Shown: one piece after another, positions 36,676 through 63,595 of the stretch
How the letters are laid out: every line of letters starts with the position of its first letter
Position numbering within the stretch: the first letter of the stretch is position 1
Translations under genes and position numbers: made by a program
The notes under the pieces: generated by a model
What the model saw: the letters and a program-made list of their open reading frames with translations, nothing else
Told to the model about the DNA's origin: nothing
Databases searched by the model: none
Virus record (IMG/VR): IMGVR_UViG_3300027906_000003
Location: 1 to 64,000 of that record
Source: a virus
Strand: one strand, 5' to 3'
Length of the DNA: 64,000 bases

Positions 36676-39600
36676 ATGGCAGAGAAAACTGATTTAAATA
36701 TATCACCCTATTACGATGACTATTCAGAAGATAAGAACTTTCAAAAAGTTCTTTATCGTGCTGGTAGACCACTTCAAGCAAGAGAATTAACTCAGTCTCA
36801 ATCAATTTTACAAAATCAAATTGAAAGATTTGGTGACCACTTCTTTAAAGAGGGTTCTATAGTATCTGGTGCTCAATGTGATGTTGACATGGACTTATAC
36901 TATGTTAAAGTAAAGTCTGCTAATCCAAATTCCTCAGGTGATGCAAGTATCGAAACATTCAGAACTGCATCACATGGTTTACATATTCAAGGTAAAACAT
37001 CAGGTGTTGTTGCAAAGATTATAACATCAACTGCTGAAACATCAGATGATAAAGCGACACTATTTGTTTACTACTTACAACAAGGAACAAATACAACCAA
37101 TGATTTTGCATTCACACCAAATGAAGAATTACAACTAGTCACATTAGATGGTTCTGGTAATGTATCAGATATTGGCACAAACAACAATGACTTTCAGGTA
37201 GAAGTTGAAACAGAAACACCAAATGGTCGTGCTTCTATAGCAAACATCTCAGAGGGTGTTGTCTTTAGTAGAGGTTTCTTCCTAAAAGTTGACAAACAAG
37301 AACTCATACTTGAAAAGTATTCAGGTAAACCAAGTTATAAAGTTGGTCTCTCTATTGTAGAATCGTTTGTTGATTCTGCAGAAGATAACACACTAGAAGA
37401 CAATGCAACAGGAACATCAAACGAAAACGCTGCAGGTGCAGATAGATTTAAAGTTGCATTAACCCTAACAAAACAATCATTAACTACCTCAGATGATACA
37501 AACTTCATCGAACTAACAAGAGTTAATCAAGGTGTTATTGAACTACATGTCAATAGACCTGTTTACAATGAAATAGAAAATACACTTGCAAGAAGAACAT
37601 TCGATGCAAATGGTGATTTTGTTGTAAAACAATTCACTCAATCAATGAGAGAACATTTAGATGATACTACTAACAGAGGATTCTATACTGCAACAAATGG
37701 TGGTAAAGAAGACCAATTTGTTATGCAAGTATCTCCAGGTAAAGCATATGTTAAAGGTTACGAAGTAGAGAAGATAGGAACTTCTATAATACCTATAAAC
37801 AAAGCAAGGTCTACTGCAACTTTAACATCAACAAATACTCCTATTAGATTAGGAAACAGATTAAGAGTCACAAAATTACATTCATTACCAGAATTTGGTA
37901 ATGAATCAGGAACAGATGCACAAGACCCATTTCAAACTTGTGAATTATTTCCTAGTGCGGTTGCATCACAAGGTGTAAAGAATAGTGAAAACCCAATTGG
38001 TTATGCAAGAGTAAGAGATGTAGTTCATCATTCAGGTGTAGATTCATCTAATGTCTATGGTGATGATGCACAATTTGATTTATCTATGTTTGACATTAAG
38101 ATGTTTACACAATTGTCTTTCAGTAGTGTAGCTAGTAATACTGAGGTCAAAGTTGGAGATAAAATTACAGAAACAAATAGTGGAGTTCCGACAGGTGCTT
38201 CAGGTATTGTAGCCGTTTGTGACAGCACAAATAATGTCTACATGTTGCACGATGTTATTGGACAATTTACAGTAGGATATGGATTATCTTCCTCAGGACA
38301 AACTGCCCACACTAAATCAAATGCGGCGGGAATAACAGCAGTTAGAAATTATAACATAGATAGAGTTCGTTCTATATATCAAGAACCTTTGGCTACATCT
38401 AGTAGAGAAGAGTTCACTGCAAATGTTATAACAAACTCAGAATTTATATTAACAGGAACAGTTCAATTTACAGCTAGTTCAACTGCATTAACAGGATTTG
38501 GAACTGCATTTACAAGAGAACTAAAAGAAGGAGATGTTGTTTACAATCCTTCAGGTTCAGGTCAAGAAAGAATTGTTGCCTCAGTCACAGATAATACAAC
38601 TGCTGTTCTTACAGCAAATTCAACAGCTGCTTTCCAAGGAAATGTCACAAGACGAAGAGCTGCTTTAATTGACCAAGACCAATCTGCAAGTATATTCAGT
38701 TGGCCTAGAGATTGGGTTAAAGACCATACACCAGACCAAGTAAAAGTAAGAAGACAAAAAGTTGTGACAGTCACTTCAAATTCTTTCACTCTTAATGTTG
38801 GTTCTAGTGAGTCGTTTGATTCAAATCTTCCTACTACTGATGATTTAACGATTGCAGTTATTGAAGCTGGTTCAGGTTCTTCTGCAAAAGCAGTTGGTGA
38901 CTTATTGAATGTAGAAGATTACACTAAAACAGCAGGCACAGGAACATTATCAATTGGTGGTTTTCATTCAGACGATAACGATGCAGTATTAAAAGTCACA
39001 TATACAGTTGACATTAATACACCTGTTAACAGAGATAAAACATTACACAAAAACAGATGTCTGAAAGTAGGAACTGCTTCAGGTAATAATGGTTTCTATG
39101 GAACTAATTACAACGATAAAGAAATATCACTTGGTGTTTCAGATGTATTTAAAGTAAGAGGTATATATGAAGGAGTTGATAATACTCCTCTAACACCAAG
39201 TGCAACATTTACAATCACATCAGGAGCATTTACAAACCATGAAGTAATCATTGGTCAAACATCAGACGCAAGGGCAGTATTAGTCACAAATAATGGTAAT
39301 GCAGCTACAAGTTATTTCTATTATACAACACCAGAAAGATTTATAGATACTGAGGTTATTACTGGTAAAGATTCAAGTGCAACTGCAACACTAACAAATG
39401 TTAATGCAGGTTCTCCAGACATCACAAGTAGATACTTCTTTGATGATGGTCAAAGAGATGGTATGTATGACTTAGCAAAATTAACACTTAAATCTGGTGA
39501 ACCAGTTCCACAAGGACCGATTCTAATAGTATATGATTACTTTACAGCATCAAACGCTGGTGATTTCTATGATGTAAATTCATACAGTAATATTGACTAT

Positions 39601-42600
39601 AAAGATATACCTGTTTACTCTCCAAGTAGAGTTGACTTAGGTGGTTTAGAACCAGACGGAACATTCGAACTATCAGATTGTGCAGACTTTAGACCAAATT
39701 GTGGTCAAGTATTTGCATCTTCAACATTTAAAACCGATTTACAACATAATGTTGCAAGTCCATTAGACTTATCTAATACAACTAATGGTGCAAGGTATTC
39801 TCCATTTTCATATGATGAGGGTCGTTCATTTGCATCTAGTAGAACAAACATAACATCTGCTAATGCAAGTGCTGTAGACTCACCTGTTAATGGTTCAAAT
39901 ATGACTGGTGCTATTGACTTCTATGTTGGAAGAATAGATAAAGTGTTTATGCACAAAACAGGTCAGTTCATGGTATCAACAGGTATTCCTTCGTTGACAC
40001 CAACCAAACCAAAAGCAATCGATGATGCAATCGAAATGTTTGAACTGAGAATACCACCTTACACGAACAATCTAAAAGATATTAGAGTAAGGTCACATGA
40101 CCATAGACGATATACTATGAAAGATATCGGTAAGATTAATAATAGGGTCACAAACTTAGAAAGAATTACTGCATTATCTTTATTAGAAAAAGACACACAA
40201 ACAAAACAAATTTTAGATGCAGACGGATTTGATAGATTCAAATCAGGTTTCTTAGTAGATAACTTTAGAGGTCATAGAGTTGGTGATGTAAATCATCCAG
40301 ACTATAATGTTTCTATTGATGCAAAATTAGGTGCAATGAGACCTAAATCATATTCACAATTCTTTGATTTAGATTTAGATACTACTGCATCATCAAACTA
40401 TACTAAGACTGGTGATTTAATTACATTACCATTCTCAGAATTATCATATGTAAACCAAGATAAAGCATCAAGACAATTGAATGTTAATCCATATCATGTC
40501 TTTGCATTCGATGGTCAACTTAAATTAACACCTGGTACCGATATATGGCAAGACACAGAACAATTACCAGAAGTAAGAGTTAATAGAGAAGGAAACTTTG
40601 ATGCTGTTATGGCTGAAAACGATAATGCCTTAGGAACAGTTTGGAATAACTGGCAAACAACATGGGCAGGAGAACCAACTGCAGTAAGTTCAGAAGTTCA
40701 AGCAACTTCAAATGGTTCTTGGTCAGGAGACCCAGCACAAGGTGGTGAATGGGTTGCAGGTTTACAAGTCACAAGAGAAATTACAGAAACACCTGAAACA
40801 CAAACAAGAACAGGTGTGACAACAAGTGTTGTTGAAGACTTTGTAGAAACAAGAAACGATAGAGTCGTATCAGTATCAATGATACCATTCTGTAGAGCAA
40901 GAACAATTGAAATAGATGCAACGAACTTAAAACCAGGTTCAAATCACTATGTCTTCTTTGATAACATCGATGTAAATAAATTTGTAAGACCTTATAATGC
41001 AAGTTATTCACAAGACGGTGGAACTACAGTATCATCAGGAGTTAAGACAGACGGAAACGGAAGATGTCGTGCATATTTTGAATTGCCTAATAGTAATGCA
41101 CAAAGATTCCCTTCAGGAATGAGGGAGATGATGATTACAACATCTGCATTCAATCTATCTAATCCAGCTTCAAGTGCTAGTGTTATATATCAAGCACAAG
41201 GACTATTACAATCTTCTCAAACAGAAATAGTATCAACAAGAAATGGTCGAGTAATTACAGAAAGAACAAGAGGAGAAAGACAATTTACAAGAAGAGGTGA
41301 GAATATAAACTCAACTGAGTGGGATTCACAAGCACCAGAAATACCAGTAAATGATGTTGTCGTGACTCCACCAAGTTCACCGATAGTTCCACCTCCAGTA
41401 GAACCACCAATTCCTGTGCCAGCACCAATACAACCTCCACAATTGGAGTCATTCCCTGCTACTGGTGTAGACAGAAGATTCATAACCAGATTAGATGGTG
41501 GTGGAAGAGGTGGTTGGAAAGACCCATTAGCACAATCATTCATGTGTGAACCACAAGGTGGAATGTTCTTATCATCAATCGATTTATACTTTGCAACTAA
41601 GTCAGATAACTTACCTGTATCTGTAGAAATCAGAAATATGGTAAACGGATATCCAGGTCAAACAGTATTACCATTCTCAGTAGTCACTAAGAATCCAGGA
41701 GATGTTAATACATCATCAGATGGTTCAGTGGTAACAACATTCACATTCGAATCACCAGTTTATATAGAAGAGGGTGCAGAAATGTGTTTCGTTGTTCTAT
41801 CTAACTCAAATGATTACGAAGTATTCATTTCAAGAATGGGTGAATCAGATATAATTTCTGGTGAGACAATATCAGGACAACCTTATGCAGGTTCTTTATT
41901 CTTATCTCAGAATGCGTCAACATGGACTGCAGAACAAACAGATGATATGAAGTTCAACATGAAGATATGTTCATTCGATACAACAAAAACACCTGATTTA
42001 AGATTTAATAATAGTGCATTACCAACACACACATTACAAAACAATCCAGTAGAAGCATTCTCAGGCAAAAACTTTGTTAAAGTTTATAACTACTCACATG
42101 GAATGTATACACCAAATTCAAGTGTGACACTTGCAGGATTAACAGGAGACAAACAAGGTTCTGCCTTAACTGTTGATACATTTACTACATCAGGAAGTCC
42201 AACTGCATCTTCAACATTTGCTGATAAAGCACAAAGTTCAACATCTGGTCAAGGTTCAGGTATGGTAGTAGAACTTACTACAGATGCTTCTAGTCCACCT
42301 GTAGTCACAGGTGTTAAGATAAAAGACCCAGGTCAAGGACATGTAGTTGGAGATGTTATTACTATCGAGAATTTTGAATCAACACATGATTGCACATTTA
42401 GAATTGCCTCAATCGGAGAGACAATTGGTGGTATGCCAGTAGATGCTATAAACGCATCATTCACTGCCATTAAAGAAATTGGTATTGATTCATTCTGCGT
42501 GACACCAGATGTATCATCATATCACTTCGTATCAAATTATACTGCACCTGCATCAACAGTAAGTGGTGGTTCAGTTGCAACATCAACAAGAAACTATTAC

Positions 42601-43383
42601 TTTGATACACTGCATACTATGATACCTAACATTCAATTTAAAAACACAAGAATATATTCAAGTGTTTATATGTCACCAATGCAATCACCAGAAGGATTTG
42701 TTGGTGGTGGTGCAAACTATGTTAAGAAAACAGTCACAGAATTTATAACACTAAATGATAATAGTCATTTTAGTAATTCACATGTTGTTGCATCTCCAGT
42801 AAATGAATCTGCTTACAATGGTAACACAAAATCATTTACTGCTCAGTTGCAATTACAATCATTTAATTCTAACTTATCACCTGTAGTCGATGTAGGAACA
42901 TTGGGTGCTATTGGTATTATGAATAGATTGAACAATATTGATAGTGCAACAAGTAAGAAAATAGATACAACTACAAATTCATTACCAGAAGGAACAGTAT
43001 ATGTTGCATCAACTGAACCTGAGGGTGATAATAATGCAATGGTATATTGCACAAGAAAAGTTAATTTAAAAACACCTGCAACTGCATTAAGAGTCACAGC
43101 AGATTTATTTAAACCTGCAACAGCAGATATCAAGTTTATGTATAAGATTCTAAAGAATGATGAATCTACTCCTTGGGACGATTTGGGTTGGGAATTCTTC
43201 AACACTGATGGTTCACCAGATGCAACACTTGAATCAGATGCAAGAAACTTTAAAGAATATGATTATACTGCAGAAGGACTTGCAGAGTTTTCATCATTTG
43301 CAATTAAGATTGTAGGACAAGGAACAAATACATGTGAAATACCGTTAGTAGCGGCTTTAAGATGTATTGCATTAGCAACATAA
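36676..43383 (+). CDS. Giant virion protein (2235 aa) with DUF4815-like N-terminus, baseplate/fibre role
   Basis: The N-terminus (ISPYYDDYSEDKNFQKVLYRAGRPLQARELTQSQ, then NQIERFGDHFFKEGSIVSGAQ) is the hallmark of the large DUF4815-type structural protein of marine T4-like phages, placed where gp10 lies in T4. Several hundred residues of beta-rich repeats follow. A proline-rich hinge near residues 1555-1595 (PPPVEPPIPVPAPIQPP) separates a C-terminal region with FMCEPQGGMFLSSIDLYF and VYIEEGAEMCFVV, resembling a jelly-roll sugar-binding module. It probably links baseplate to fibres. Confidence 0.75.
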   Translation: MAEKTDLNISPYYDDYSEDKNFQKVLYRAGRPLQARELTQSQSILQNQIERFGDHFFKEGSIVSGAQCDVDMDLYYVKVKSANPNSSGDASIETFRTASHGLHIQGKTSGVVAKIITSTAETSDDKATLFVYYLQQGTNTTNDFAFTPNEELQLVTLDGSGNVSDIGTNNNDFQVEVETETPNGRASIANISEGVVFSRGFFLKVDKQELILEKYSGKPSYKVGLSIVESFVDSAEDNTLEDNATGTSNENAAGADRFKVALTLTKQSLTTSDDTNFIELTRVNQGVIELHVNRPVYNEIENTLARRTFDANGDFVVKQFTQSMREHLDDTTNRGFYTATNGGKEDQFVMQVSPGKAYVKGYEVEKIGTSIIPINKARSTATLTSTNTPIRLGNRLRVTKLHSLPEFGNESGTDAQDPFQTCELFPSAVASQGVKNSENPIGYARVRDVVHHSGVDSSNVYGDDAQFDLSMFDIKMFTQLSFSSVASNTEVKVGDKITETNSGVPTGASGIVAVCDSTNNVYMLHDVIGQFTVGYGLSSSGQTAHTKSNAAGITAVRNYNIDRVRSIYQEPLATSSREEFTANVITNSEFILTGTVQFTASSTALTGFGTAFTRELKEGDVVYNPSGSGQERIVASVTDNTTAVLTANSTAAFQGNVTRRRAALIDQDQSASIFSWPRDWVKDHTPDQVKVRRQKVVTVTSNSFTLNVGSSESFDSNLPTTDDLTIAVIEAGSGSSAKAVGDLLNVEDYTKTAGTGTLSIGGFHSDDNDAVLKVTYTVDINTPVNRDKTLHKNRCLKVGTASGNNGFYGTNYNDKEISLGVSDVFKVRGIYEGVDNTPLTPSATFTITSGAFTNHEVIIGQTSDARAVLVTNNGNAATSYFYYTTPERFIDTEVITGKDSSATATLTNVNAGSPDITSRYFFDDGQRDGMYDLAKLTLKSGEPVPQGPILIVYDYFTASNAGDFYDVNSYSNIDYKDIPVYSPSRVDLGGLEPDGTFELSDCADFRPNCGQVFASSTFKTDLQHNVASPLDLSNTTNGARYSPFSYDEGRSFASSRTNITSANASAVDSPVNGSNMTGAIDFYVGRIDKVFMHKTGQFMVSTGIPSLTPTKPKAIDDAIEMFELRIPPYTNNLKDIRVRSHDHRRYTMKDIGKINNRVTNLERITALSLLEKDTQTKQILDADGFDRFKSGFLVDNFRGHRVGDVNHPDYNVSIDAKLGAMRPKSYSQFFDLDLDTTASSNYTKTGDLITLPFSELSYVNQDKASRQLNVNPYHVFAFDGQLKLTPGTDIWQDTEQLPEVRVNREGNFDAVMAENDNALGTVWNNWQTTWAGEPTAVSSEVQATSNGSWSGDPAQGGEWVAGLQVTREITETPETQTRTGVTTSVVEDFVETRNDRVVSVSMIPFCRARTIEIDATNLKPGSNHYVFFDNIDVNKFVRPYNASYSQDGGTTVSSGVKTDGNGRCRAYFELPNSNAQRFPSGMREMMITTSAFNLSNPASSASVIYQAQGLLQSSQTEIVSTRNGRVITERTRGERQFTRRGENINSTEWDSQAPEIPVNDVVVTPPSSPIVPPPVEPPIPVPAPIQPPQLESFPATGVDRRFITRLDGGGRGGWKDPLAQSFMCEPQGGMFLSSIDLYFATKSDNLPVSVEIRNMVNGYPGQTVLPFSVVTKNPGDVNTSSDGSVVTTFTFESPVYIEEGAEMCFVVLSNSNDYEVFISRMGESDIISGETISGQPYAGSLFLSQNASTWTAEQTDDMKFNMKICSFDTTKTPDLRFNNSALPTHTLQNNPVEAFSGKNFVKVYNYSHGMYTPNSSVTLAGLTGDKQGSALTVDTFTTSGSPTASSTFADKAQSSTSGQGSGMVVELTTDASSPPVVTGVKIKDPGQGHVVGDVITIENFESTHDCTFRIASIGETIGGMPVDAINASFTAIKEIGIDSFCVTPDVSSYHFVSNYTAPASTVSGGSVATSTRNYYFDTLHTMIPNIQFKNTRIYSSVYMSPMQSPEGFVGGGANYVKKTVTEFITLNDNSHFSNSHVVASPVNESAYNGNTKSFTAQLQLQSFNSNLSPVVDVGTLGAIGIMNRLNNIDSATSKKIDTTTNSLPEGTVYVASTEPEGDNNAMVYCTRKVNLKTPATALRVTADLFKPATADIKFMYKILKNDESTPWDDLGWEFFNTDGSPDATLESDARNFKEYDYTAEGLAEFSSFAIKIVGQGTNTCEIPLVAALRCIALAT

Positions 43384-45074: not shown

Positions 45075-46469
45075 ATGTCAGAGAAAATTTATGTAAATAC
45101 TGGTTCGACCTTTCAACAACCATTTAATGATAGGTCACCTAAGAATGCTCAGCAACCTTATATAGCTAATGCTCAGACTCCCTATATAGCTAATTCACAA
45201 ACACCCTTTACATATTCAAATAGACAACCTGCAAAGTATCAGAATCCAACTGATGCTCAGCAACCTTATATAGCTAATGCACAACAGTCGTATCCATATA
45301 TTGCTAATGCAAGACAACCTTACATAGCTAACGCACAACAACCTTATCCATATCAGGCAAATAGTCAGAATCCTTATATTGCGAATGCAAGGCAACCTGC
45401 GAAGTATCAACATCCGACATCTTCTCAGACTCCTTACATAGCTAATGCACAGACACCGTATCCTGCTAATGCAAGACAACCTAGTGATTATCAAACACCT
45501 TATATTGCAAATTATCAAACAGCGTATCCTGCAAATGCGAGACAACCTGTAGATGCTCAACAACCTAGTAATAGTCAAACACCATATCCTGCAAATGCTA
45601 GGCAACCTGCAAAATATAGAAACCCATTTACATATAATGCGAGGACTCCAGCATCTTCACAAACTCCTGTAACCTATGATGTGTGGGGTGGGGGAAATGC
45701 TCAATCAACATCACAATTAGAAACCACAACTGATGTGTCAGCACCTATGGCACCCTTTTCACAAACGCCTACTTTTAATTACCAGACTGTAGGTCAACCA
45801 ACATCAATTCATTGGGGTCCAGGTTCAACACATATAAAAAATAGTCCAAATTCATCATATGCTCCAACAACTGCACCTATGATTTGGAGTACCCAGCAAT
45901 ATAACACTTATAATTACAGTTTCGGTTCTTGTTGGGCTCAGTTCTTTATTGGTTATGAATCTAGTTCAGGCAAAGTTTACTACGGTTATGGTGCGGGTAA
46001 TTCTCAATTCGGAGGCACAAGTGTTGGCACCTCTGGTAATAGAGTATATTTACCTTTAACTGAATTAAGTAATAATAATGTTATTGATAGTTCTTGGTCA
46101 ATATCAGTCAAATATACAGTTCAATCACAAAGTATAGTTCAAGGTGGTACATCTTCTCAACATCCAGCTAGTCCGAGTTATGGTACAGGTTTAGCTGCTG
46201 GAACATATGTAAACATATGGGATGGTTCTTCTGTTCAAAGTAGTGGCATTGAAACATTCATGTGGGAGGCGGTATCATCATCTAACCCAGGAAATGGAGA
46301 TGCAAGGGTTTCTGCAAGTGGTGTAGTATTTACAGTTAAGGCACATAAGACTGGTCAAACATCATACTATACACATTATATTGTAGCACAACATGGAGCT
46401 GGTACCAGCTCACCTTTTGGTGAAATATATTTGAGGTCACTCTATGGTAATAACCATGCACCAGTATAA
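45075..46469 (+). CDS. PYIAN/PxxY repeat protein A with C-terminal globular domain
   Basis: Residues about 20-200 consist of short units built on P-Y-I-A-N-A-Q/R-x or P-x-x-Y (for example QTPYIANAQ, RQPAKYQNP), spaced six to eight residues. Residues about 205-464 are a non-repetitive serine/tyrosine/glycine-rich domain (FGSCWAQFFIGYESSSGKVYYGYG) that looks like a receptor-binding tip. No catalytic motif is visible. Position after a fibre gene makes a fibre or adhesin role likely. The repeat family is not one I can name. Confidence 0.6.
   Translation: MSEKIYVNTGSTFQQPFNDRSPKNAQQPYIANAQTPYIANSQTPFTYSNRQPAKYQNPTDAQQPYIANAQQSYPYIANARQPYIANAQQPYPYQANSQNPYIANARQPAKYQHPTSSQTPYIANAQTPYPANARQPSDYQTPYIANYQTAYPANARQPVDAQQPSNSQTPYPANARQPAKYRNPFTYNARTPASSQTPVTYDVWGGGNAQSTSQLETTTDVSAPMAPFSQTPTFNYQTVGQPTSIHWGPGSTHIKNSPNSSYAPTTAPMIWSTQQYNTYNYSFGSCWAQFFIGYESSSGKVYYGYGAGNSQFGGTSVGTSGNRVYLPLTELSNNNVIDSSWSISVKYTVQSQSIVQGGTSSQHPASPSYGTGLAAGTYVNIWDGSSVQSSGIETFMWEAVSSSNPGNGDARVSASGVVFTVKAHKTGQTSYYTHYIVAQHGAGTSSPFGEIYLRSLYGNNHAPV
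45132..45678 (+). repeat. Coding repeat array encoding PYIAN/PxxY units, set 1
   Basis: Imperfect 18-24 base units of the form CCTTATATAGCTAATGC recur with synonymous changes. Codon-level divergence between units with conserved residues points to selection on the protein. Confidence 0.75.
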
Positions 46470-46483
46470 GGAGATGAGAAGAT

Positions 46484-47200
46484 ATGCCTACAGTTAGTCA
46501 ACCAGTCATAATTCAGCAACCTTATATTGCAAGTGGTCAATCGCCGGTCGATTATAGAGTTCCGTTTACATATCAGGCAAGACAACCTGGAACATATAGA
46601 CACCCCTTTACATATCAAGTTCCGTTTACATATCAGGCAAGACAACCTGGAACATATGATGCAAGGCAACCTGCAAAGTATCAACACCCATTTATATATC
46701 AGGCACGACAGCCTTCTACATATCAGGCAAGACAACCTGCTATATACAGACATCCGGCAGATTATCAAACACCATTTACATATGCTCGTAGACAACCGGC
46801 AACATATGCAAGACAAGGTCAAACTCCGTTTACATATCAAGCAAGAACACCTTTCACATATGATAGACAAGGTCAAACACCATTTACATATCAGGCAAGA
46901 AGTCCGTTTACATACAGAAATCCAACAGACTATCAGACACCTTATATTGCAGATGCAAGACAACCTGGAACATATTCTAATAGACAACCATCCACTTATC
47001 AGAATAGACAACCATTCACATATCAACTTTCGGTTCCAAGCACAAGACCAATAGGTCCTTTGGCAAAAGCAAAACAAGTTTGGGTAAATGATAACGGAAC
47101 TTTAAAAAAGGCAAGTAGTGTATATGTAAATGATGGTGGAACGGCTAAAAAGATACATCAAACACAACCTACAGCACAATTAACAGAACCTAATACCTAG
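46484..47200 (+). CDS. PxxY repeat protein B with fibre-type C-terminus
   Basis: Almost the whole 238-residue chain (about 8-185) is PxxY units such as PFTYQARQ, PGTYRH and PFTYDRQGQT. The last 50 residues (KAKQVWVNDNGTLKKASSVYVNDGG) match a short beta module seen in many tail proteins. It follows repeat protein A by 14 bases, with AGGAGA before the gene. The chain is rich in Q, R, P, Y and T and lacks a hydrophobic core in the usual sense. A fibrous adhesive is the most likely reading. Confidence 0.6.
   Translation: MPTVSQPVIIQQPYIASGQSPVDYRVPFTYQARQPGTYRHPFTYQVPFTYQARQPGTYDARQPAKYQHPFIYQARQPSTYQARQPAIYRHPADYQTPFTYARRQPATYARQGQTPFTYQARTPFTYDRQGQTPFTYQARSPFTYRNPTDYQTPYIADARQPGTYSNRQPSTYQNRQPFTYQLSVPSTRPIGPLAKAKQVWVNDNGTLKKASSVYVNDGGTAKKIHQTQPTAQLTEPNT
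46505..47039 (+). repeat. Coding repeat array encoding PFTY/PGTY units, set 2
   Basis: Units around CCGTTTACATATCA and CCTGGAACATATGA recur in runs. Some neighbouring units are identical in DNA (for example the two copies near 46560 and 46620), suggesting recent duplication. Confidence 0.75.
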
Positions 47201-47226: not shown

Positions 47227-47562
47227 ATGGCTATTATCGCAAACTTATATATTGACCAAGGAACAGACTTCACAATTACAGTTGATGTCACAGACGCTGC
47301 TGGAGATGTTCTTAATTTGACTAACTATTCTGCGCTTGCACAAGTAAGAAAAACATATAGTTCTTCTAGTGCTTCAGTAGCATTTACTACTTCGATATCA
47401 GCAGCTCAAGGTCAAGTCACATTAAGTCTAAATGATACACAAACAAAAGCTTTAGAAGCAGGTCGATATGTTTACGATTTAAATATCACAAGTGCTGGTG
47501 GGATAACTACTAGAGTTGTCGAAGGACAAGCAATAGTGACACCAGGAGTAAGTCGGAGTTAA
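47227..47562 (+). CDS. Small Ig-like virion protein
   Basis: The 111-residue product (LYIDQGTDFTITVDVTDAAGD, YSALAQVRKTYSS, GQVTLSLNDTQTKALEAGRYVYDLNI) has the strand pattern of a small immunoglobulin-like or BppU-type phage domain, common in marine T4-like phages as a minor tail or baseplate decoration. It is led by a late promoter with leaderless geometry and is followed two bases later by another small gene. Confidence 0.65.
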   Translation: MAIIANLYIDQGTDFTITVDVTDAAGDVLNLTNYSALAQVRKTYSSSSASVAFTTSISAAQGQVTLSLNDTQTKALEAGRYVYDLNITSAGGITTRVVEGQAIVTPGVSRS

Positions 47563-47823: not shown

Positions 47824-48687
47824 ATGGATGAATGGTCACCTTTGCGTGAAATCATTGTAGGCACACTTCAAGGTTTCGAAGAACATAATCACTATTCATC
47901 ATATCATTCCTCAAATAAATTCATTAAATCATTATATGATGAAGCAGAAGAGGGTCTACAAACATTTCAAAAACTATTAGAGAAAGAGGGTGTAATTGTT
48001 CATCGTCCTCGTGGTTTTTGTTATAATGTAAGAGATTGTGCTGTAGTATTAGGTGATACTATTGTTGAGGGTTCTATGAGATATGAAGAAGAGTATCTTT
48101 GGTTGGAATCTTTAAGACCAATATTCTTAGAAAGTGATTTAAATTATTTGATAGGTCCTAAACCCACATGGAAAAATGACGAACCCATATTTGATGGTGC
48201 AAATCTTTGTAAACTAGGAGATAGTGTTCTAATTGCAATTAATGAAACTGCAAATGATAAAGGAAAAATGTGGTTAGAGAAAACATTTCCAAATATAAAC
48301 TTCAATTCAATAAATCTAAAAGAAGATGTATCTCATATAGATACAACTATAGTTCCTATATCTTCTAATACTGTTTTATTAAACTCAAATAGATTAGACG
48401 AAGATACACTTCCATCTGTATTGAATGATTGGAATAAAATATGGGTTAAAGAAGAAGATTTAGTAGATGAAGCTAAAATGTTTGGATTTAAATATGGTGC
48501 AAGTAAGTGGATAGGTATGAATACTCTTTCTCTTAATGAGAATACACTATTCATTAGTGAAGGACAAGTAAAACTTATAGACATATTAGAGAGTAAGAAC
48601 TTTAATTGTATACCTGTTCCTTTAAGATATACCAGAGAACTTTGTGGTGGTTTACATTGTTGCACTTTAGACCTGGTTAGAGAATAG
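47824..48687 (+). CDS. Amidinotransferase (glycine/inosamine amidinotransferase family)
   Basis: Family enzymes move an amidino group from arginine to an amine through a cysteine intermediate. The 287-residue protein has the family start (DEWSPLREIIVGT), YNVRD (D71), IFDGAN (D124), SHIDTT (H171 and D173) and the catalytic GGLHCCTLD near the C-terminus (likely C279). The active-site set therefore looks complete, but the chain is shorter than usual members of about 350 residues. It is inserted between virion genes with no promoter of its own. Its product, possibly a modified virion or host sugar or polyamine, is unknown. Confidence 0.83.
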   Translation: MDEWSPLREIIVGTLQGFEEHNHYSSYHSSNKFIKSLYDEAEEGLQTFQKLLEKEGVIVHRPRGFCYNVRDCAVVLGDTIVEGSMRYEEEYLWLESLRPIFLESDLNYLIGPKPTWKNDEPIFDGANLCKLGDSVLIAINETANDKGKMWLEKTFPNINFNSINLKEDVSHIDTTIVPISSNTVLLNSNRLDEDTLPSVLNDWNKIWVKEEDLVDEAKMFGFKYGASKWIGMNTLSLNENTLFISEGQVKLIDILESKNFNCIPVPLRYTRELCGGLHCCTLDLVRE

Positions 48688-55104: not shown

Positions 55105-55977
55105 ATGGTAACAGGTAATCAAAAGGTTAAAACCCCAGCTGGTTGGAATTCAACTAGAGGGGCTTGGGTTAAGACTGCATCAGACACATGGACAGATGTT
55201 GACCAGATTTATGTAAAAACTCCAACAGGTTGGAATAATGCGTCAGGTCAGGCAATTACTCAGAACCCTTACCCATATATTGCGAATAATCAAACCCCTT
55301 ATATTGCTAATGCTCAACAGCCTTATCCTTATATTGCGAATAACCAGACTCCATATATTGCAAATGGTCAACAACCATATCCGTATATAGCAAACAGTCA
55401 GACTCCTTATATAGCAAACGGTCAACAACCTTATCCATATCAGGCAAATAGTCAGACTCCTTATATTGCTAACGCACAACAACCGTATCCATATATTGCG
55501 AATAGTCAATCACCATATATTGCTAATGCAAGACAACCTGCAAAATATCAGAATCCTGTAAATGGACAACAACCCTATATTGCAAATGGTCAAAGAAATG
55601 AGTCATACAGAAATCCTGTAAACTATCAGACACCTTATATTGCAAATGCTAGACAACCTGCACATTATAGGAATCCTGTAAGTTATCGTGTGCCTTATAT
55701 TGCAAATGGTCAACAACCATTTACCTATAATGCAAGGTATCCGGCAACATATCCGGCAAATGCTCAGCAACCATTCACCTACAATGCAAGGTATCCTGCA
55801 ACATATCCGGCAAATGCAAGACAACCATTTACATATAATGCAAGATATCCTGCAAATGCAACATATCCTGCAAACGGACAACAACCGTCTACATATCCGT
55901 TCTTGTATAATGCACCTTATCCATTCTTCCAACCATTTGGTGGCGGCGGTGGTTCACCTAACATGAACTTGAAATAA
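55105..55977 (+). CDS. PYIAN repeat protein C
   Basis: Residues 1-50 are two copies of a fibre-type module (KTPAGWNSTRGAWVKTASDTWTDVDQIYVKT). Residues about 53-273 are tandem PYIAN units (QTPYIANAQQPYPYIAN pattern) passing into PFTYNARYPATYPAN units. The chain ends with a glycine-rich tail (FGGGGGSPNMNLK). It stands directly after the long fibre gene, as repeat protein A stands after another fibre gene. Probable fibre extension or adhesin; the family is not recognised. Confidence 0.62.
   Translation: MVTGNQKVKTPAGWNSTRGAWVKTASDTWTDVDQIYVKTPTGWNNASGQAITQNPYPYIANNQTPYIANAQQPYPYIANNQTPYIANGQQPYPYIANSQTPYIANGQQPYPYQANSQTPYIANAQQPYPYIANSQSPYIANARQPAKYQNPVNGQQPYIANGQRNESYRNPVNYQTPYIANARQPAHYRNPVSYRVPYIANGQQPFTYNARYPATYPANAQQPFTYNARYPATYPANARQPFTYNARYPANATYPANGQQPSTYPFLYNAPYPFFQPFGGGGGSPNMNLK
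55261..55924 (+). repeat. Coding repeat array encoding PYIAN and PFTYNARYPA units, set 3
   Basis: Units around CCTTATATTGCTAATG, 18-30 bases apart, repeat through most of the gene. The 3' part repeats a longer 66-69 base block (CCATTTACATATAATGCAAG type) at least three times. Confidence 0.78.
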
Positions 55978-56011
55978 TGGAGTATATAATGAATAAAACG
56001 GAGAACACACA

Positions 56012-56749
56012 ATGGCTATAGGATTTTACTGGACAAGTGCTCAAGGTAACACTAGGTCACCGTTTACTTATCAAGTCCCATTTACATATCGTGTGCCTTA
56101 CATTGCAAATGGTAGGTCACCATTTACTTATCAAGCATCATATCGTGTGCCTTATATTGCGAATGGTAGAAGTCCTTTCACATATCAAGCATCATATCGT
56201 GTGCCTTACATTGCAAATGGTAGGTCACCGTTTACATATAATGCAAGGTATCCGGCAGGTTATAGAAATCCGGTAAGTTATCGAGTTCCGTTTACATATT
56301 CAAATAGACAACCTGCATTATATCAGAATCCTGTAATTTATCAAGTTCCGTTTACTTACAACAATAGGTCTCCGTTTACATACAGAAACCCTGTAGATTA
56401 TAGAATACCGTTTACATATCAGTCAAGACAACCAGGCACATATCAGAGAACAGGACAAACTCCATTCACTTATCAGAATAGACAACCTGGAACATATGAA
56501 ACACAAGGTCAAACACCATTTACCTATCAAAACAGGCAACCAGGAACATATGATAGGCAAGGACAGACTCCATTCACTTATCAGAATAGACAACCTGGAA
56601 CATATGCAAGACAAGGTCAGACTCCATTCACTTATCAGAATAGACAACCTGGAACATATGCTACACAAGGTAGAACACCAGTGTCTCGTTGGGATGGAGT
56701 TTTATCACAAACTTGGCCAGCAGCTCCGTTTGATGCTACAAACTCATAA
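56012..56749 (+). CDS. PFTY repeat protein D
   Basis: The 245-residue chain is almost wholly repeats: PFTYQASYRVPYIANGRS three times, then PFTYNxR, and near the end QTPFTYQNRQPGTY with a three-residue changing linker four times. A short unique tail (SRWDGVLSQTWPAAPF) follows. An ACGGAG ribosome site lies upstream. It closes the second repeat pair. Confidence 0.62.
   Translation: MAIGFYWTSAQGNTRSPFTYQVPFTYRVPYIANGRSPFTYQASYRVPYIANGRSPFTYQASYRVPYIANGRSPFTYNARYPAGYRNPVSYRVPFTYSNRQPALYQNPVIYQVPFTYNNRSPFTYRNPVDYRIPFTYQSRQPGTYQRTGQTPFTYQNRQPGTYETQGQTPFTYQNRQPGTYDRQGQTPFTYQNRQPGTYARQGQTPFTYQNRQPGTYATQGRTPVSRWDGVLSQTWPAAPFDATNS
56045..56690 (+). repeat. Coding repeat array encoding PFTY units, set 4
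   Basis: Includes three near-identical 57-66 base blocks at about 56080-56240 and four near-identical 60-63 base blocks at about 56450-56665. DNA identity between blocks is high, unlike the older repeats of set 3. Confidence 0.8.
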
Positions 56750-59048: not shown

Positions 59049-59792
59049 ATGCAAGTCGTTCACATTGATAAACCCTTTAAGATACAGGACATGCCTTTAA
59101 AAGATGTCTATGTATTAGATAATTGGTTATCAACTGAACTACATCAACACTTCGATAAACTAATTTCTAATAATTCTTGGTGGTCTAAAACAAATCAAGT
59201 AGGCAGTAATAGTCCTACAGGTCTTCCACACCATTCTTTTTGGGGTGCGTCTTTCTTTAGAGACAACTATGAAATAGAACATGACATGGAACCTCTACAT
59301 ACATATTTTGTTAAATCTATTATAGAAAGACTTGAAGTTGAATTTGGATTTAAATATACTCGTTTTCAATATGCAGGCCTAAACTCACAAACACAAGGTT
59401 GTCCAGGAACAATACATACAGACTGTTCAAATGATGACGCATGGAATATATCCTTTCTATATTACCCAAATAGATTTTGGAATCCAAAATGGGGTGGGAC
59501 ATTAAGATTGCTTGATGAACCACATCAAGGTTTAGATGGAAGACAAGAACATATTGAGAAACATCAGATAGCCGAAGTAGAGTTTGTTCCAAATCGACTA
59601 GTTATATTTGACGGAAGAATACCTCATGGTGCAGATGCACCAAATGAAAGTGCAAGATATATGGATAGAAAATCTTTAGTAATAAGAGGAGATGAGGTAG
59701 AATTAATAAAAAACACAGAGGTGTTGTATAAATCTTATAGAAGGCCAATGACAGAATGGGCCGCTGGAACACACCTACAACCTTACTTTTAA
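59049..59792 (+). CDS. 2OG-Fe(II) dioxygenase (prolyl-4-hydroxylase-like)
   Basis: These enzymes hydroxylate protein, nucleic acid or small molecules using 2-oxoglutarate and iron. The iron triad is visible: H123-x-D125 in TIHTDCS and H193 in RIPHGADAP, followed by the 2OG-binding arginine in RKSLVIRG. The double-stranded beta-helix pattern (NISFLYYPNRFWNPKWGGTLRLL; NRLVIFDGRIPHG) is complete in 247 residues. The substrate is unknown. The proline-rich PxxY fibres encoded nearby would be natural candidates for a prolyl hydroxylase, which is inference. Confidence 0.85.
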   Translation: MQVVHIDKPFKIQDMPLKDVYVLDNWLSTELHQHFDKLISNNSWWSKTNQVGSNSPTGLPHHSFWGASFFRDNYEIEHDMEPLHTYFVKSIIERLEVEFGFKYTRFQYAGLNSQTQGCPGTIHTDCSNDDAWNISFLYYPNRFWNPKWGGTLRLLDEPHQGLDGRQEHIEKHQIAEVEFVPNRLVIFDGRIPHGADAPNESARYMDRKSLVIRGDEVELIKNTEVLYKSYRRPMTEWAAGTHLQPYF

Positions 59793-61920: not shown

Positions 61921-62736
61921 ATGGCAACACCAAATAGCAAAGCAACTTTCAAAGAATACATCAAAAGAAAACTCGGTGCGCCTGTTCTGGAAATCAATGT
62001 CGATGACGACCAATTTGAAGATAGAATGGATGAGGCAATACAGTGGTTTCAAGAGTATCACTATGATGGTTCTATAAAAACATACTTAAAACATGAGTTA
62101 ACCGACTCAGAACTAACACAAATGAAGACGGATACGAGTATGACATCGTCTCCAGCTGGTTCACACGACTACTCAAACACTGCATTTAAAGAACAACAGA
62201 ATTATATTGTTCTTCCAGAGTTCGTTCTTGCAGTTAATAACATATTTCCTTTCAACGATAAACACAATTTAAATATGTTTGACTTACGATATCAATTAAG
62301 ACTAAATGATATCTATGATTTAACATCAACAAACATTCTAAACTATTCAATGGTTCAACAACACATTAGTATGTTAGATGATATACTAGTTGGAAAAACA
62401 CCAATCAGATATAACACACATCAAAATAGACTATACTTAGATATGGCTACATCAAATGTATCTGCAGGTGAGTATATCATTATTGAATGTTATAGAAAAT
62501 TAGACCCCACAGACATGACAGATATCTATAATGATATGTGGTTGAAAAAATATGCAACTGCATTAGTCAAGTATCAGTGGGCAGAAAACTTATCTAAGTT
62601 CTCAGGAGTTGCACTACCAGGTGGTGTCACACTTGATGCTGAGAGAATGAAAACTGAAGCACAAGAAGAGATTACAAGATTAGAAGAAGAGTCAAGATTA
62701 AATCATCAAATGATGCCAATCGACTTAATGGGATAA
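61921..62736 (+). CDS. 13: Neck protein gp13
   Basis: The 271-residue product (T4 309) begins ATFKEYIKRKLGAPVLEINVDDDQFEDRMDEAIQWFQEYHYDGS and ends in KKYATALVKYQWAENLSKFSGVALPGGV followed by a helical tail, the conserved pattern of gp13. In T4 gp13 and gp14 close the packaged head and receive the tail. It is followed four bases later by gp14. Confidence 0.93.
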   Translation: MATPNSKATFKEYIKRKLGAPVLEINVDDDQFEDRMDEAIQWFQEYHYDGSIKTYLKHELTDSELTQMKTDTSMTSSPAGSHDYSNTAFKEQQNYIVLPEFVLAVNNIFPFNDKHNLNMFDLRYQLRLNDIYDLTSTNILNYSMVQQHISMLDDILVGKTPIRYNTHQNRLYLDMATSNVSAGEYIIIECYRKLDPTDMTDIYNDMWLKKYATALVKYQWAENLSKFSGVALPGGVTLDAERMKTEAQEEITRLEEESRLNHQMMPIDLMG

Positions 62737-62740
62737 TATT

Positions 62741-63595
62741 ATGCCGACAAATGTATACTTTAACCATGCAGTTAATACTGAACAACACCTCTATGAGGAT
62801 TTAGTTGTTGAATCACTTAGATTCTATGGTCATGAAACATACTATCTACCAAGACAGATAATAGAAGAAGATAGTATTCTTGGTGAAGATGTGCAATCAA
62901 CATTCGGTGATGCGTATTCTGTAGAAATGTATTTAGATAATGTTGAGGGGTTTGAAGGAGAGGACCTATTCTCTAAGTTTGGTATTCAAACACAAGAAGA
63001 ATGCACATTTACACTTGCACTTAGAACATGGGAAAGATTCATTTCATTAGACTCCAACTTAGTCACATCACTTAGACCAAATGAGGGAGACTTAGTATAC
63101 TTCCCTATGTCTGGTTCTATGTTTGAAATCAGATATGTCGAAGACCAAAATCCTTTCTTTCAGATAGGAAAACTTTTTGTATTCAAACTTAAATGCACAT
63201 TATTCGAATACAGTGGAGAAGACTTCGATACAAACATTGATGCAATTGACATTGTTGAAGACCAACAAGCATATACAATTCAATTAACAATGAATTCAAG
63301 TGGTTCAGGTGATTACGCAGCGAATGAATCAATTAAGATTGGTTCAACAGTAATTGGTGAAGTCACATCTTGGAAAGCGTCTACACATCTACTTACAGTT
63401 AAAGATGTCACCACAACGATTCAGGTTGGTGATACGATAGAGGGTGCTGTTAACGGTGCATCTTATACAGTTGCAAGTATTAGAGACATTCTAACTATGA
63501 ATGACGGAACAGGTGCTGATAATGCAGATTTAGAAACTACTGCAGACAACTACTTAGACTTCTCAGAAACAAACCCATTTGGTGAGGTTACATAA
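62741..63595 (+). CDS. 14: Neck protein gp14
   Basis: The 284-residue product (T4 256) begins NVYFNHAVNTEQHLYEDLVVESLRFYGHETYYLPR and continues DDSILGE-like EDSILGEDVQSTFGDAYSVEMYLDNVEGFEGEDLFSKFG in the conserved gp14 order, with LRPNEGDLVYFPMSGSMFEI and FQIGKLFVFKLKC. The C-terminal 80 residues are a beta extension. It overlaps the acyl carrier protein gene by one base. Confidence 0.93.
   Translation: MPTNVYFNHAVNTEQHLYEDLVVESLRFYGHETYYLPRQIIEEDSILGEDVQSTFGDAYSVEMYLDNVEGFEGEDLFSKFGIQTQEECTFTLALRTWERFISLDSNLVTSLRPNEGDLVYFPMSGSMFEIRYVEDQNPFFQIGKLFVFKLKCTLFEYSGEDFDTNIDAIDIVEDQQAYTIQLTMNSSGSGDYAANESIKIGSTVIGEVTSWKASTHLLTVKDVTTTIQVGDTIEGAVNGASYTVASIRDILTMNDGTGADNADLETTADNYLDFSETNPFGEVT

Follow-up and report, generated by a model that had tools for sequence, protein, structure and literature searches.

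Mirrored proline repeats in neighbouring fibre-island genes of marine T4-like viruses point to cognate antiparallel protein pairs

The fibre island analysed here encodes two pairs of adjacent repeat proteins, A with B and C with D, in which the order of unit lengths of one chain, read from the N to the C terminus, is that of its partner read from C to N. The genes lie in a window of 64,000 nucleotides taken from a virus record of 123,820 bases. The pairing of A with B and of C with D is strongly supported by sequence comparisons. We propose that A:B and C:D probably form cognate heteromeric, antiparallel and register-locked fibre shafts that carry conserved anchor modules at one end and end in a variable domain; the strand geometry, stoichiometry, virion location and function of these shafts are what we infer for them.

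Fibre-type genes and both repeat pairs are located downstream of a VrlC-type gene. Among named relatives, the nearest to its product belong to Methylophilales phage Melnitz, with 36% full-length identity, and Pelagibacter phage Mosig. Neck genes, assigned by position, occupy 61921-63595. The VrlC-to-neck interval has been named the host recognition cluster in pelagimyophages (PMC7029224), and A-D are situated in the same interval; unlike here, the island regions of Mosig and Melnitz, the two nearest named phages, are devoid of such repeat genes. The VrlC-like gene, the PHROG tail-fibre matches around it and synteny in many loci indicate membership of a T4-like tail-fibre island, which agrees with the first-pass annotation, made from the sequence alone, that two adjacent repeat genes at 45132-47039 stand beside fibre genes. 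The corresponding reading frames are slightly wider than described (Table 1), and the further genes implied by the wording "first pair" were found at 55105-56749. The annotation overlooked the mirror-image relation of the A/B and C/D tracts.

Table 1. Coordinates of the repeat genes, their parts and two neighbouring genes in the window
Feature	Position	Strand	Description
Gene A	45075..46469	+	464 aa; N-terminal IYVNTG segment, repeat tract, variable beta-rich C-terminal domain
A repeat tract	45120..45689	+	About residues 16-205; unit order is the mirror of the B tract
A C-terminal globular domain	45690..46466	+	Faster-evolving than the A repeats; probable distal tip
Gene B	46484..47200	+	238 aa; repeat tract, then conserved double YVNDxG module
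B repeat tract	46502..47044	+	21/23 prolines coincide antiparallel with A prolines
B C-terminal module	47045..47197	+	phrog_13729 match; would adjoin the A N-terminus; probable anchor end
Gene C	55105..55977	+	290 aa; N-terminal GWN/IYVKTP module, repeat tract, short Gly-rich tail
C repeat tract	55267..55914	+	
Gene D	56012..56749	+	245 aa; repeat tract and RWDG-type C-terminal segment
D repeat tract	56060..56677	+	Mirror of the C tract; 25/26 D prolines coincide antiparallel with C prolines
VrlC-like virion protein	36676..43383	+	Upstream edge of the fibre island; largest gene of the region
Gene after B	47227..47562	+	Similar to L-shaped tail fibre assembly families

Several other genes of the region deserve mention. 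The gene after B has relatives in at least 72 loci, its PHROG matches include "L-shaped tail fiber protein assembly", and its match to Pfam LtfC stays below the cut-off. Within the island, the product of 47824-48684 reads like an amidinotransferase/dimethylargininase-type enzyme, matches phrog_25854 (function unknown) and has relatives in only 19 of the loci listed. PHROG assigns 59049-59789 to DNA endonuclease V; by eye, the protein is closer to a 2-oxoglutarate dioxygenase.

Scans of IMG/VR for relatives provided 36 loci, 58 loci and the best 80 of 176 matching stretches. The carriers of the family are uncultured marine T4-like viruses, and all sequences come from metagenomic contigs; one MAG contig labelled Sphingobacteriales also carries the repeat genes. 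A tblastn search of 50,697 named phage records returned no genuine family member, and no cultured phage with the repeat genes was found in this collection. Matches in Pseudomonas phages (Flu_PA14 and others) were rejected after one that was checked turned out to be out of frame with the annotated gene; its source in Pseudomonas phage Flu_PA14_4 (L001:7448-8770) is a hypothetical protein with a different ten-residue repeat (SAASNTGYQ/NR). Matches in Vibrio phages were short, the one in F23s1 being antisense to its annotated feature, and were treated as chance.

All four proteins are strict two-residue-periodic chains. Their units run from proline to proline and comprise 6, 8 or 10 residues in addition to two-residue PYP steps, so that the six- to eight-residue range of the first-pass annotation holds for the 6- and 8-residue units and misses the others. 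The dense PYIAN/PxxY pattern that it reported is evident: PxxY occurs 21 times in B (mean 3.1, maximum 11 in 2000 composition-matched shuffles) and, in only moderate excess, 8 times in A (mean 3.0, maximum 10), a protein in which PYIAN is the prevailing form (8 PYIA). Among 184 non-redundant family proteins, distances between prolines vary, being mostly 2, 6, 8 or 10, and 6371 spacings are even versus 83 odd (98.7% even). In the same set, 98% of prolines fall in one phase, together with isoleucine, and the opposite phase holds 97% of Y, 96% of F, 97% of H, 88% of A, and also V. The earlier statement that a conventional hydrophobic core is lacking was thus incomplete, as the chains show an amphipathic alternation that restricts Y, F, A, V and H to a single phase. 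Such parity is the pattern expected from an extended strand with two different faces, not from the three-residue period of collagen or polyproline II, and the alternation of proline with aromatic residues may reflect the in/out alternation of beta strands.

The distinction from known fibre repeats drawn in the annotation held for each class compared. The two-residue period and a glycine content of about 3% of the repeat tracts do not fit a collagen-like repeat; proline at about 14% of residues and its nearly even-only spacing do not fit a heptad coiled coil; and PYIAN/PxTY units of 6, 8 or 10 residues do not fit the VxGxxxxx pattern of a T4 gp5-type triple-stranded beta-helix. A match to a described structural repeat family, the outcome that the annotation had set against a new fold, was found neither in Pfam, where no family matches A or B, nor among functionally named PHROG families, none of which matches the repeats, nor in a PDB sequence search with B (no match at E<=1). 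The PHROG search returned the family of the B C-terminal module (PHROG_13729, function unknown) and one match at 0.095. Descriptions of the repeat, of mirrored fibre partners or of a protein pairing code did not appear in the databases and literature searched, which covered few subscription journals and no bioRxiv.

The partner genes are nearly always neighbours on the same strand, usually separated by a few tens of bases (98 C-D, 12 D-C and 49 A-B cases among the loci listed), and the lengths of their repeat tracts correlate (r=0.97 over 150-650 aa for C/D, r=0.69 for A/B). When chains are superimposed without gaps, the proportion of coinciding prolines in C/D reaches 0.948 in the antiparallel orientation, against 0.612 for the best parallel one and 0.489 for shuffled unit order; the respective values for A/B are 0.786, 0.582 and 0.483. 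In the pairs of the window, the coincidences given in Table 1 are obtained at a single offset. When gaps are permitted, 1057 of the 1095 prolines in D stand opposite a proline in C, and the antiparallel orientation exceeds the parallel one in all 34 CD pairs and in 15 of 18 AB pairs; 27 of the 34 CD pairs align without any gap. A/B is noisier than C/D: slips of 2 residues occur in several pairs, and gap-free alignment is poor for L103/L098 and L153 (A/B).

As the family sequences are related and not independent, nominal p-values overstate the case; within-genome controls and permutations are the safer evidence. Wrong partners from the same genomes coincide at 0.53 (AD), 0.56 (CB), 0.53 (AC) and 0.50 (BD). 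Among all partners, the cognate one scores highest for 33 of the 34 C proteins and 16 of the 18 A proteins, and the permutation maximum lies far below the observed cognate value.

Opposite units are complementary in type as well as equal in length. Among 627 pairs of facing 8-residue units, 617 combine a PYIAN-type with a PxTY-type unit and none combines two PxTY-type units (Fisher p 1e-41 for AB and 1e-125 for CD, both nominal given the relatedness of the sequences). Specifically, PYIANxxx stands opposite PxTYxxRx, the 10-residue PYPYIANxxx opposite PxTYARQGxx, and 6-residue units are mostly PxNAQx opposite PxTYRx; a smaller group of 53 six-residue units is Y/Y, for example PAKYQN facing PTDYQT, and 10 units of type n face n. 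Complementarity amounts to 0.94 at the true register and drops to 0.49-0.68 when the chains are shifted by 1-3 units. At the residue level, the covariation is carried by the odd phase of aromatic and small residues and has the same strength at a+b=L and a+b=L-2; in n/Y unit pairs, hardly any is seen on the even face (P, T, Q, R, I). At offset -2, proline stands opposite R or Q in 92% of cases and F opposite A or G in 85%, and K/D coincidences concentrate at this offset (8 of 10) with no K-K. We read these pairings as possible size and charge complementarity. Since the P-on-P register was chosen by maximal coincidence and the covariation is equal at two offsets, the strands may either pair edge to edge or interdigitate face to face.

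The mirror relation is also visible in the way the genes change. The survey of indels comprised 22 non-overlapping comparisons of close relatives, with a limit of 30 residues. Even lengths account for 50 of the 52 chain-1 indels, and 30 of the 52 have a counterpart in the partner that agrees in size and sign and sits at the mirror position, versus 9.2 expected for random positions. Between L182 and L142, for example, changes of -26, -8, +2 and -34 occur in both C and D (three of the four were counted owing to the 30-residue limit), and L068/L088 differ by mirrored indels of +10 and +20. A few near-identical pairs show a C indel of 18-20 residues without a D counterpart, possibly reflecting an assembly error or a C overhang.

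Single-chain AF2 models of A and B give a pLDDT of about 30 over the repeats and no fold; such monomers are uninformative here, because the repeats would be an obligate heteromer. The globular C-terminal domain attributed to A by the annotation is seen in the model as beta strands from residue 274 on (pLDDT mostly 56-80), and its divergence is more rapid than that of the A repeats. A Foldseek search of PDB with the A model yielded nothing at E<=0.001, the best hits being C2 domains (0.04), and against BFVD one uncharacterised phage protein (1.4e-5). The end module ascribed to B corresponds to a doubled [VW]xVNDxGT..K motif, predicted by AF2 as four strands and matched only by PHROG_13729. The C tail is interchangeable among relatives, being a Gly-rich tail, a beta domain or a Hint-like domain. 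A Gly run followed by Cys, like the start of a Hint (intein/hedgehog-like) domain, ends the C proteins of L106, L061, L084, L095, L068, L184, L182, L160, L137, L144, L142 and L147, and Hint-like ends were also noted in the A proteins of L034, L101 and L115. Pfam supports the assignment in L034 (Hom_end_hint above the cut-off); the others are weak or made by eye. Such a domain might release or join the fibre tip. At the A/B position of two loci (L027:5314-6765 and L028:5314-6765) there is one ORF of 484 aa, A-type at its N-terminus and B-type at its C-terminus, which may represent a fused pair folding as a hairpin; the hairpin score of the L027 fusion, 60.5 versus a maximum of 60.0 in 25 shuffles, is only suggestive and does not enter the case for pairing.

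In the proposed shafts, the two different, adjacently encoded chains would point in opposite directions, with each unit of one repeat tract matched to a unit of the other. The result would be an extended, beta-type heteromer in which proline would occupy positions where an NH is dispensable. At one end, the probable virion anchor, the N-terminal IYVNTG segment of A would lie beside the C-terminal double YVNDxG module of B, and the N-terminal GWN/IYVKTP module of C beside the C-terminal RWDG segment of D. The opposite end, which would carry the rapidly diverging C-terminal domain of A in one pair and the exchangeable C tail in the other, would be the probable receptor-facing tip. At about 0.33 nm per residue, the tracts, of 142-649 residues, would measure about 47-214 nm when fully extended. 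Conserved modules at one end, a variable domain at the other and the fibre-island location fit an anchored two-chain fibre. Host recognition, suggested in the first-pass annotation, is a plausible role for the variable C-terminal domains of A and C.

A, B, C and D might instead build separate parallel homotrimeric shafts, like T4 gp34/36/37 or a triple beta-helix, with repeats shared by ancestry. Their tail-fibre island with other fibre genes, conserved end modules and long extended repeats suit such an arrangement; nevertheless, it does not predict mirrored unit order, mirrored indels and complementary unit types between neighbours, nor an antiparallel coincidence of 0.95 in C/D when wrong partners from one genome reach 0.50-0.56, and we regard it as very unlikely. 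The new fibrous fold postulated by the annotation survives in part: a new fibrous architecture stays reasonable, given that Pfam, PDB sequences and the functionally named PHROG families offered no match to the repeats, whereas A and B as self-standing fibres or trimers give way to the antiparallel cognate partners suggested by the sequences. It is also very unlikely that the tracts are disordered Tyr/Pro-rich linkers or glue of the mussel-foot or condensate kind. A low-complexity composition rich in P, Y, Q, R and N and the lack of a fold in single-chain AF2 models would agree with this possibility. Nothing in disorder, however, calls for spacings that are 98.7% even, for tracts of equal length or for a unit-by-unit mirror relation to one specific partner.

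Unit lengths would also be mirrored if the adjacent genes or their mRNAs were antisense-complementary and paired as RNA or DNA. This origin appears extremely improbable, since the complementarity of partner genes near the mirror register is a marginal excess (0.328 vs 0.302, the best of 17 random registers), dN/dS of 0.15-0.39 indicates selection at the protein level, and the symmetry is kept where the gene order is D-C (L030, L033, L035). Both chains could, finally, be matched to a common third partner bound along their length, an ordered lattice or another protein, which the even face with its scarce covariation in n/Y pairs might contact. We consider this very unlikely as well: no other repeat protein with a matching unit order is present in the loci read, and complementary unit types together with K-D pairing suggest direct contact of the two chains.

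The C-terminal domain of T4 gp5 is a triple-stranded beta-helix (PMC4576200). T4-type fibres and beta-helices resemble the proposed two-chain shafts as long slender repeat-based tail structures with a conserved base and a variable tip, and the gene order of the island is T4-like. The gp34/36/37 fibres and the gp5 beta-helix are, however, parallel homotrimers with their own repeats (a VxGxxxxx octapeptide in gp5), whereas here two different chains mirror each other antiparallel in Pro-to-Pro units of 6, 8 or 10 residues. Heterodimeric coiled coils and designed armadillo repeat-peptide systems likewise bring two chains together in register by a repeating residue code; the present pairs differ in their two-residue, beta-type period, in that both partners are extended repeat chains, and in that unit lengths are letters to be matched in mirrored order. 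Mussel foot proteins and similar adhesives consist of Pro/Tyr-rich decapeptides, a likeness of short repeats and composition only, as strict parity and a matched antiparallel partner distinguish the proteins described here.

The Pro-to-Pro units probably constitute a natural protein-protein pairing code, a small alphabet of differing lengths and complementary types that, read antiparallel, would set partner, register and shaft length and would evolve by mirrored indels. Such a code would predict partner, register and length straight from sequence, and fibres that assemble themselves to a set length might be derived from it. For proteins without a known structure, the mirrored indels are coevolution evidence of unusual strength. 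If the proposal is true, these phages possess a heteromeric, antiparallel and code-matched fibre architecture, unlike the parallel homotrimer, and provide a rare natural case of two proteins recognising each other over hundreds of residues by a readable unit code.
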